Assembly (NCBI GenBank): GCA_902801685.1 | Contig: CADCIZ010000009.1 | Span: 1-37,837, forward strand | DNA: 37,837 bases | Direction: 5' to 3' | Source: an uncultured Erysipelotrichaceae bacterium | GTDB taxonomy: Bacteria; Bacillota_I; Bacilli_A; RF39; UBA660 | In this document: piece after piece, positions 693 through 3,581 of the stretch | Layout of the letters: each line of letters starts with the position of its first letter | Numbering within the stretch: position 1 is the stretch's first letter | Program-made: the position numbers and the translations under genes | The notes under the pieces: model-generated | The model's database searches: none | Seen by the model: the letters and a program-made list of their open reading frames with translations, nothing else | What the model was told of the DNA's origin: nothing

Positions 693-1310
693 ATGAAGAA
701 AGTAATCATTAATCACTGGATGAAAATTATAAAAGAGAAAAAAAATTTTAATGATAAAAAATTATCTGAAATAGAGTATGGTCTTACTGGATTATACTTA
801 ACAATTTCTAAACTAATAGTAATTGTAGTCGTAGCTTTAATACTGGGAATATTTAAGGAAATGATAACATTCTTACTTATATATAATATATTAAGAATGC
901 CTTCATTCGGCATTCATGCAACAAAAAGTTGGATTTGTCTTGTATCATCATTAATCATATTTATTGGATTTCCAATACTATGTATAAACATTAAATTAAC
1001 AACAACAATTAAAATAATTATAGGATTTTTTGGATGTATACTTATGTTTAAAAATAGTCCAGCAGATACAAAAAAAAGACCAATAGTTAATCACAAAAGA
1101 AGATTAATATATAAAATTATTTCAACAATACTTGCAATTATTTTTGTAACCTTAAGTATATTAATAAAAAATAATTATATATCCAATTGCTTAATATTTG
1201 GATTAGTTCTTCAAAATATATTAATATCACCATTAACATATAAAATATTTAAACAACCATATAATAATTATAAAGAATTTTTAAGATTAAATCCAAATTT
1301 TCTGAATTAA
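693..1310 (+). CDS. agrB: AgrB-like autoinducer-processing protease
   Basis: AgrB is a membrane cysteine endopeptidase. It cuts the C-terminal tail off the AgrD precursor and helps form the cyclic peptide signal. This 205-residue protein is highly hydrophobic with several membrane segments. It has the catalytic His75 and Cys82 spaced as in the family (FGIHATKSWIC), followed by the PADTKKRPI segment typical of AgrB. The start is set at the ATG at 693 because AGGTGA at 682-687 precedes it; a GTG at 684 lies inside that site. agrD follows 50 nt downstream on the same strand. The cognate kinase and regulator are on the opposite strand. Confidence 0.9.
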   Translation: MKKVIINHWMKIIKEKKNFNDKKLSEIEYGLTGLYLTISKLIVIVVVALILGIFKEMITFLLIYNILRMPSFGIHATKSWICLVSSLIIFIGFPILCINIKLTTTIKIIIGFFGCILMFKNSPADTKKRPIVNHKRRLIYKIISTILAIIFVTLSILIKNNYISNCLIFGLVLQNILISPLTYKIFKQPYNNYKEFLRLNPNFLN

Positions 1311-1360: not shown

Positions 1361-1480
1361 ATGGGATTTTTTGCAAATATTTTAGCTGCACTTGGTATTG
1401 GAAGTGCTGCAACTGGAAGTCAAGCTTGTCATTGGTTTTTAATTGACGAACCTGAATGCCCAGAAAGTTTAATTAAATAA
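1361..1480 (+). CDS. agrD: AgrD-like autoinducing peptide precursor
   Basis: This 39-residue gene is preceded by a strong AAAGGAGGG site 6 nt upstream. The peptide has the three AgrD parts: an amphipathic hydrophobic N-terminus (MGFFANILAALGIG), a signal core with one cysteine (Cys23, CHWFLI), and an acidic C-terminal recognition tail (DEPECPESL), which parallels the DEVEVPKEL tail of staphylococcal AgrD. AgrB would cleave before the tail and leave a thiolactone of 5 or 6 residues (CHWFL or CHWFLI). A second cysteine (Cys33) within the recognition tail is unusual. The position directly after agrB supports the call. The mature signal length is inferred. Confidence 0.88.
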   Translation: MGFFANILAALGIGSAATGSQACHWFLIDEPECPESLIK

Positions 1481-1538: not shown

Positions 1539-2838
1539 ATATTTTTTTCTTTAACTTTATAATTAATATTTGTGAAAACACATTTTTTGTAATTTCTTTT
1601 TTATTTGATAATCTTTTATTACTATCGACTATTTTTTTTACTAACTGAAGCCCATAACCTCGATCTTTTCCTTTATTTGATTTCAAAATATTCTTCGATT
1701 CTATATTTTGTATTTCGTGATTATTTTTAATAATTATATACATATTATTATCGGCAACATGCATATCAATATTAATAAACTTTTCTTTGATATTACAAGT
1801 TTCATCTATGGCGTTATCTATAAATACTCCCAATATTTCACAAATATCTACAATATCATTATCATCAATATTAGATAATAATTTATTAGTAATTAGTTTA
1901 TCAATATTAAGATTAAAACTAATATTTTTTTCTTTCATATTTAGTAATTTGTTATAAATTAATCCCCTTATCCCACCTTCAGGAAGTTTTAAAGTCATAT
2001 CCATTATTTCGTTATATAGTTTATTATTATGATTAATTAGAGAATTAACATATTTTTTCACCTTTTCATCTTTCGTCATAGATACGATGGTTAAAAGCTG
2101 ATTTTTGTTTTCGTGATTCATTATTCTATATTCATTAATAACATTTTCTTGAGATTGTAAACTATCTAAACTAGTATTATATTTTAATTTTATTCTATAA
2201 TATCGATTCTGATAGTTTAATATAACGACTGTTATAATTACATAAATTATAGATATTAGTATATTAATTGTTACAGATATTTTAACATTATTCTGAAAAT
2301 AAGTAGATGCAAATACAGAAGTAATACCAAAAACAGTAAAAGAAATAAATAATATAAATTTTTTTACATTAATATTTAAAGTAATTTTATAAAAAAAATT
2401 ACAAATACAACTAAATATTCTTACTTTAGAAATAATAATTGTTATTAATCCTATAAAACAATCAAAAATAATTTGTAATTTAAGTGATGTTGTAATATTA
2501 CTCATTTTTAAGTTAAATACCATATTACAGAGCAAAACCAGAATTGCTTCACTTAAAATTATTAATATCTCTCCAATAAAAACAGCAACAATACATTTTT
2601 TAATATCATCACTCATTATATACTTACAAAAGAAAATTGCTATTATTATCGTTCCAACTCCTTTTATTAAAGTTGGTGAATATTTATAATTTAAAAATGT
2701 AAACAATGTCAATAATACTATTAATAAATGCGTTTTGTATTTTTTTAATATTTCATTTTTTCTAAATAAGTTACACCATACAACTACTTCAGAAAAAGAT
2801 AATATATAATCAGATAAAAATTCAAATATTAGATTCAT
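1537..2838 (-). CDS. agrC: AgrC-like sensor histidine kinase
   Basis: This 433-residue kinase is the likely receptor for the AgrD-derived peptide. The first 210 residues form about six hydrophobic membrane segments. A linker follows with the probable phosphoacceptor His242 (MNHENKNQL), and then a GHKL ATPase domain with an N box (GVFIDNAIDE, Asn342) and a glycine box (KDRGYGLQLVKK, near 391-402). This is the HPK10/AgrC layout. The start codon overlaps the stop of agrA (ATGA), so the two are translationally coupled, with agrA first. That order is the reverse of staphylococcal agrC-agrA. Ligand specificity is inferred from the neighbourhood only. Confidence 0.88.
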   Translation of the reverse strand: MNLIFEFLSDYILSFSEVVVWCNLFRKNEILKKYKTHLLIVLLTLFTFLNYKYSPTLIKGVGTIIIAIFFCKYIMSDDIKKCIVAVFIGEILIILSEAILVLLCNMVFNLKMSNITTSLKLQIIFDCFIGLITIIISKVRIFSCICNFFYKITLNINVKKFILFISFTVFGITSVFASTYFQNNVKISVTINILISIIYVIITVVILNYQNRYYRIKLKYNTSLDSLQSQENVINEYRIMNHENKNQLLTIVSMTKDEKVKKYVNSLINHNNKLYNEIMDMTLKLPEGGIRGLIYNKLLNMKEKNISFNLNIDKLITNKLLSNIDDNDIVDICEILGVFIDNAIDETCNIKEKFINIDMHVADNNMYIIIKNNHEIQNIESKNILKSNKGKDRGYGLQLVKKIVDSNKRLSNKKEITKNVFSQILIIKLKKKI

Positions 2839-3539
2839 AATATCATCTCCTTTTTATATTTGTTTGAAAGTAAATCAGTATAATAGTTGTTATCAAAATA
2901 TATTATCCTTTTACTGTAATCAATTCTTGATATTCTAGTCTTATTTACAATACAAGCTCTATGTGTTTGAATAAATCTATCATCTAACATTAATTGTAAT
3001 TTTGATAATGACTTACGTACTTTATACTCAATATAATCTGTTTTAATAGTTGTTCTTCTTTCAAAAGTATCTTTGGATAAATATAATATATCATTTAAAT
3101 CAATAATATATGTATTTGTTCCATCTTCAATTCTTAAAACTCTTTTCATTTTTATAAGATTAATTGCTTTATGAAGAACTTGATTTAATCTTTTATCCAA
3201 ATTATCGAATTTATTAACAAATGACAAAAACATTAAATCATTATTTAATATAATATGTCCTAATTCATCATGCCCTGTTAAAAAAATAATTACACTTTCT
3301 AAATCTTTATGTCTTATTTCTCTTGCAACATCTATACCAGATCTAGATGGCGTCTCAATATCTAATATATAAATTCTAAATGGGACTTTTGATTTTAAAA
3401 ACTTCATGAAATTATCATTATAGTCTGAATAAAGATACTTATTATAGTTATATTTATTTGTTTTCATGAATTTATCAACTAATTTTGTTACTCTTTCTAA
3501 ATCTCTTTTATTATCATCACAAATAGCTATATTTATCAT
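2835..3539 (-). CDS. agrA: AgrA-like LytTR response regulator
   Basis: This is a response regulator of 234 residues. It has an N-terminal receiver domain (acidic pocket near CDDN, phosphoacceptor Asp60 in YILDIE) and a C-terminal LytTR DNA-binding domain (about 135-234, including RFIQTHRACIVN). It would be phosphorylated by the adjacent AgrC and activate agr-type promoters. The start is the ATG at 3539: AAGGAG stands 8 nt upstream, and a GTG at 3548 lies too close to that site to be used. The gene ends in TGA overlapping agrC by four bases. Confidence 0.88.
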   Translation of the reverse strand: MINIAICDDNKRDLERVTKLVDKFMKTNKYNYNKYLYSDYNDNFMKFLKSKVPFRIYILDIETPSRSGIDVAREIRHKDLESVIIFLTGHDELGHIILNNDLMFLSFVNKFDNLDKRLNQVLHKAINLIKMKRVLRIEDGTNTYIIDLNDILYLSKDTFERRTTIKTDYIEYKVRKSLSKLQLMLDDRFIQTHRACIVNKTRISRIDYSKRIIYFDNNYYTDLLSNKYKKEMIL

Positions 3540-3581
3540 TAAATCCACTCCTTCCTTGTTAACATTCAGCTAACCGCACAT

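Follow-up and report, generated by a model that had tools for sequence, protein, structure and literature searches.

The stretch of DNA analysed here (37,837 nucleotides, referred to below as the window) very likely carries a complete agr locus for quorum sensing from an uncultured gut bacterium, with a six-residue thiolactone, CHWFLI, as its predicted signal. The precursor gene agrD lies on the same strand as the upstream agrB, and genes for a GHKL-type kinase and a LytTR regulator are located downstream, facing agrBD. The genome gave a single AgrB match and a single AgrD above cut-off; a second AgrD match was weak (E 1.04) and is not an AgrD.

The agrD open reading frame of 39 codons (1361-1480, forward strand) translates to MGFFANILAALGIGSAATGSQACHWFLIDEPECPESLIK, a peptide of 39 residues with two cysteines, Cys23 and Cys33. 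Direct reading of the DNA places a strong ribosome-binding site, AAGGAGGG, at 1348-1355 on the same strand, five bases 5′ of the ATG. The peptide was recognized by the NCBIfam model TIGR04223 (quorum_AgrD) with 25.7 bits against a cut-off of 19 (E 9.2e-06), and its score with PF05931, the Pfam model of staphylococcal AgrD, was 18.4 bits, under the gathering cut-off of 22.7. It possesses the Cys23 nucleophile, hydrophobic residues and the acidic P-x-x-P tail DEPECP that mark AgrD peptides, and this pattern recurs in the family; in other genomes, relatives with the conserved leader and tail also sit 3′ of agrB. By these features the open reading frame is a genuine gene for an AgrD precursor and not a chance occurrence. 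The initial annotation had read it as an AgrD and had proposed a new candidate autoinducing peptide adjoining its AgrB; the first proposal is borne out by the TIGR04223 score and the upstream agrB, and the second is supported as well. Its warning that filters for short open reading frames would miss the gene proved unnecessary, since a public NCBIfam model detects agrD above cut-off. The precursor is of an ordinary kind, yet undescribed, and the predicted signal is one more agr signal. The peptide was not found in the published literature, which was searched by topic and not by peptide letters, and among the matches listed no report was plainly about agr in these uncultured Bacilli. A search of solved structures gave no relative of AgrB or AgrD at E up to 1, the one antibody chain that appeared (E 0.97) being a chance match.

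The agrB gene (693-1310, forward strand; alternative GTG start at 684) encodes a predicted membrane peptidase and cyclase that scored 111.8 bits with PF04647 (cut-off 23). A candidate promoter, TTGTCG-17-TATAAT, precedes it at 644-672 on the forward strand and matches the consensus at 10 of 12 positions; overall, the scan that yielded it was not above chance (34 found vs. 36.1 expected). Where the agrBD and agrCA transcripts converge there is an inverted repeat (1478-1553; 29-nt arms, 83% complementary), possibly a two-way terminator. It was absent from the list produced by the terminator scan, which demands more G-C pairs.

The genes for the AgrC-like sensor histidine kinase (1537-2838) and the AgrA-like response regulator with a LytTR DNA-binding domain (2835-3548) are on the reverse strand. 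As expected of AgrC and AgrA partners beside agrBD, the GHKL-type kinase domain PF14501 (43.7 bits) and the LytTR domain PF04397 (55.9 bits) were both over cut-off, and the receiver domain PF00072 in the regulator was just below it (29.7 bits, cut-off 30.2). With the staphylococcal equivalog models NF046015 (AgrC) and NF046049 (AgrA) the scores were 45.8 of 500 and 63.8 of 400 bits, respectively; the best NCBIfam match of the regulator was quorum_RR_AgrA, at 63.8 bits far under the equivalog cut-off of 400. The only solved relatives of the kinase at E up to 0.001 were two S. aureus AgrC sequences (E 2.6e-07 and 6.6e-07). AgrC identity over eight relatives, with the near-identical L034 left out, was 17-32% in the sensor half and 41-57% in the kinase half, and a less conserved sensor half is what one would expect of a receptor keeping pace with a changing signal.

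Of 291 sampled genomes of the family, 195 carry an AgrB and 119 gave matches in a family-wide AgrD search. The best 80 of 95 confirmed loci from an AgrB scan of species genomes were taken, and the remaining places from the 119-genome AgrD search were added. The AgrDs were extracted with a model based on 74 seeds, which yielded 168 different parsed peptides; no two of these are identical across the final 40 residues, but they are not independent. The seeds were required to have an acidic D/E-E anchor, which biases the sample toward regular members. Excluded beforehand were two copies of the window (L001, L240), a weak match elsewhere in the genome (L003), four loci cut at contig ends (L064, L076, L080, L103), one locus that was cut and unparsed (L078), and L004, L005 and the out-of-family loci, which hold another type of AgrD and belong to a separate comparison. 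From the set of 20 other-type AgrDs we had left out L144 (peptide identical to that of L119), L135 (a doubtful frame of 108 residues) and L140 (internal stop). The relatives are labelled as uncultured Bacilli, Erysipelotrichaceae and Tenericutes, among others; one named relative, Candidatus Faecisoma, is placed by NCBI in Mycoplasmatota incertae sedis. The gene order csp, agrB, agrD was near constant. With duplicates of some loci included in both counts, csp was found in 154 of the 168 loci examined and the kinase gene was downstream and opposite in 145 of the 146 loci in which one was found. No kinase was found in 22 of the 168 loci, and 19 of these 22 lie no more than 1500 bases from a contig end.

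The size of the ring, left open in the initial annotation as five or six residues, was addressed by alignment with the AgrDs of the relatives and with the 20 AgrDs of five-residue type, and the alignment favours six. In S. aureus, AgrB cuts its precursor between M32 and D33, and D33 and E34 are essential (PMC10196373). Precursors were aligned on the D-E anchor, with ring positions counted negative before the cut and tail positions counted from the first tail residue (D1-E2-P3-E4-C5-P6). In all 20 other-type AgrDs the nucleophile (Cys, Ser or Thr) is exactly five residues before the cut. In the family it is at −6 in 159 of 168 peptides (149 Cys, and 10 Ser or Thr in peptides lacking a nearby Cys), the window AgrD also having a spacing of six and not five; Cys is at −7 in seven of the 168 and at −5 in two.

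The pattern of variation was followed in 156 near pairs, which are AgrD pairs with at most four differences outside the core and are not independent of each other. Positions −5, −4, −3, −2 and −1 differed in 78, 70, 45, 74 and 72% of these pairs, respectively, and positions −10 to −6, comprising the conserved GSQA and the ring Cys, in 0-2%, +1 in 1% and +2 in 0%. Further out the leader is moderately variable (the maximum, at −12, being 48%), and differences at tail positions 3, 4 and 8 were seen in 12-21% of pairs. In these alignments the edges of the hypervariable block are sharp, the block being Cys plus five residues. Because of this block, and because the nucleophile is at −6 as compared to −5 in the other AgrDs, the predicted ring is CHWFLI. 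The evidence indicates a ring of six residues, not five, and settles the question as far as sequence can. On the forward strand of the window the precursor would accordingly be divided into a leader (residues 1-22, 1361-1426) ending in GSQA, the predicted mature ring Cys23-His-Trp-Phe-Leu-Ile28 (1427-1444) and a putative AgrB-recognition tail, DEPECPESLIK, containing the P-x-x-P motif (1445-1477).

A five-residue ring CHWFL, from which Ile28 would leave with the tail, is an unlikely product. Five is the commonest ring size among the known signals tabulated in PMC12312760 and also in the 20 other AgrDs examined, and it would suit the two family members with Cys at −5, but position −1 varies just as strongly as the other block positions (72% of near pairs) with +1 near constant (1%), and the D-E anchor lies one residue further from the nucleophile than it does in five-ring precursors. 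The ring size in the family is not rigid, in view of the peptides with Cys at −7 or −5 and of L004 (G076) and L005 (G268), which represent family genomes holding five-residue-type AgrDs, perhaps acquired from elsewhere.

The 149 AgrDs that have Cys at −6 carry 145 different ring cores. Family members such as L035, L037 and L043 share with the window AgrD the GSQAC leader, a tail that reads DEPECPxSLIK or nearly so, and the gene order, whereas the window core agrees at no more than one of its five positions with that of any of the eight nearest relatives listed. The comparison yields a clear-cut rule of ring size that covers a large group known here mostly from metagenome-assembled genomes, and the rule leads to concrete, synthesizable signal predictions for bacteria that have perhaps not yet been grown.

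Some further observations concern the cores. A second Cys is found inside the ring core of L037 (CHCWFI), L097 (CSCWVL), L187 (CACFVW) and L178 (CSTLIC), and could yield alternative rings. Tandem agrD genes with differing rings occur in two genomes, with two genes in G053 and three in G029 (L059/L163; L180 plus L161). Covariation between the last ring residue and tail position 3 gave a Fisher p of 0.0007 over the 168 peptides and was rejected, as independent tree pairs were not significant (7 pairs, median p 0.25).

The active site of AgrB is intact in the window and conserved throughout the family, with Gly, His and Cys present in 146 of 146 sequences and Arg in 144 of 146. These residues, known to be important, correspond to R70, G75, H77 and C84 of S. 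aureus AgrB (PMC10196373). From the known agr pathway we infer the cleavage site, ring chemistry, export, sensing and regulated genes. AgrB would recognize the tail DEPECP, cut AgrD between Ile28 and Asp29 and keep the peptide bound to its own cysteine by a thioester before passing it to Cys23, giving the six-residue thiolactone. The leader would be removed afterwards, perhaps at the conserved GSQA. The genome encodes two proteins of the Rce1-like family PF02517, which by analogy to MroQ we take to be candidates for leader removal. The secreted ring would be sensed by the facing AgrC-like kinase, which would then activate the LytTR regulator.

Compatible with this scheme is a variant in which the product is released without an exotail and its free N-terminal Cys rearranges to give an all-amide cyclic hexapeptide, a possibility that we rate at somewhat below an even chance. 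The residues before the ring Cys are near invariant and therefore carry no specificity, while the exotails of staphylococcal signals differ (PMC12312760), and exotail-free thiolactones of Listeria are described to rearrange likewise (PMC11297923). However, a constant exotail that is kept on the signal would give the same sequence pattern.

The second cysteine, Cys33 (tail position 5, 1457-1459), had been singled out in the initial annotation with the remark that most AgrD tails have none. This holds outside the family, where 18 of the 20 other-type tails lack Cys (2 of 20 have one) and none of the 20 has it at position 5. It does not hold inside the family, where 92 of 168 tails contain a Cys. 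The residue is not a peculiarity either: Cys is the majority residue at position 5 (89 of 168) and swaps with Met (51), Ala (12) and Thr (11), with Ile (3), Ser (1) and Val (1) making up the remainder. On a tree of 146 AgrBs, built quickly with a simple model, at least 13 changes between Cys and not-Cys are required at this position. Cys33 falls inside P-x-x-P, which was proposed as an AgrB recognition motif (PMC8748961). Since position 5 exchanges with Met, Ala and Thr, we consider Cys33 to be part of this recognition tail and not a site of special chemistry. In the aligned tails Cys33 has the pattern of a side chain that can be exchanged and not that of a nucleophile, and it would act as a small hydrophobic contact of the motif that is thrown away with the tail.

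That Cys33 is chemically active, for example by closing the ring in place of Cys23, by forming a disulfide or by relaying a thioester to AgrB, appears highly improbable. Position 5 was constant in 155 of the 156 near pairs and Cys is its commonest residue, which would agree with such a role, but the other 79 of the 168 peptides have Met, Ala, Thr, Ile, Ser or Val there, the state changes repeatedly on the AgrB tree, and the same AgrB active site is found in all 146 loci examined. Moreover, the 20 other AgrDs have Glu, Lys, Leu, Ile, Val or Met at this position.

The ring cysteine itself is also replaced in some relatives. All ten AgrDs that have no Cys at −4 to −8 carry Ser (4) or Thr (6) at −6, residues that fill just 22 of 840 core positions. 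The six Thr AgrDs are on separate branches and require six changes on the AgrB tree, and in their loci (L216, L112, L214, L225, L149 and L171, the last a longer copy of L129) the His-Cys pair of AgrB is intact. The out-of-family AgrD L120 likewise has Thr as the nucleophile. The agr signals tabulated in PMC12312760 close via Cys or Ser only. The replacement of the ring Cys by Thr suggests threonine-lactone signals, and since Thr at −6 recurs, the AgrBs are intact and the tabulated signals are restricted to Cys and Ser, Thr-closed lactones are a testable prediction. The natural Cys-to-Thr swaps also form a test of the tolerance of AgrB in the choice of the ring-closing residue. It seems to us about equally probable as not that in these uncultured gut Bacilli the agr ring has grown across the whole family from five residues to six, in rare cases to seven, that a single recognition tail (mostly DEPxxP) was retained while the five ring residues diverged with hardly any repeats, and that the ring Cys was repeatedly converted to Thr, giving threonine-lactone signals that are absent from the published signal table.

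Six-residue agr rings as such are already known and not new. The C. acetobutylicum signal CVLVTL is listed as a six-residue ring (PMC12312760), and rings of this size are predicted for a clostridial group (PMC10301443). The agr system of C. acetobutylicum (synthetic peptide R6T0) resembles the window locus in its six-residue ring beginning with Cys and its separate agrBD and agrCA units (PMC12312760, PMC10301443); it differs in belonging to another bacterial group and in that its agr units precede a LanM-like gene (PMC10301443). The resemblance to the clostridial signal CLWFT that the initial annotation had pointed out is superficial. Like CHWFLI, CLWFT of C. perfringens has Cys followed by hydrophobic and aromatic residues, but it comprises five residues, not six, and CVLVTL is the analogue in ring size (PMC12312760). 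With the S. aureus agr system the window locus shares the AgrB active site, an acidic tail straight after the ring, a hypervariable ring, a LytTR regulator and a kinase that matches AgrC. It is unlike S. aureus, which has a five-residue ring and one agrBDCA operon (PMC12312760), in its six-residue spacing and convergent agrBD and agrCA units. The window AgrD also scores below the staphylococcal Pfam cut-off, as described above.

The region between csp and agrB was enriched in TTCGACA/TGTCGAA, which we assume to be the Spo0A box, with occurrences in 57 of 138 distinct upstream regions vs. 2, 6 and 2 in three shuffles. The window has three matches between the two genes (473-479, 483-489 and 645-651), and its small genome encodes a Spo0A. 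Control of agr by Spo0A was considered and is not claimed because most boxes are on the csp side, read toward csp and are far from agrB. TGTCGAA in the orientation of agrB was found in only 5 of the 138 regions, including that of the near-identical relative L034; the window has it at 645-651.

In the relatives, direct repeats in the region preceding agrB were clearly in excess at a lag of 21 bases only (z 3.8, eight shuffles; lags 8-33), with z 0.5 at lag 20 and negative values for the rest. The window's own region upstream of agrB has no clear 21-base repeat pair, and for this reason autoinduction is not claimed for the window locus. In many relatives (e.g., L175, L096 and L202) repeat pairs with a period of 21 bases are present at about −80 to −95 from agrB. 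This is the spacing used by LytTR regulators, and the repeats suggest autoinduction in these relatives.
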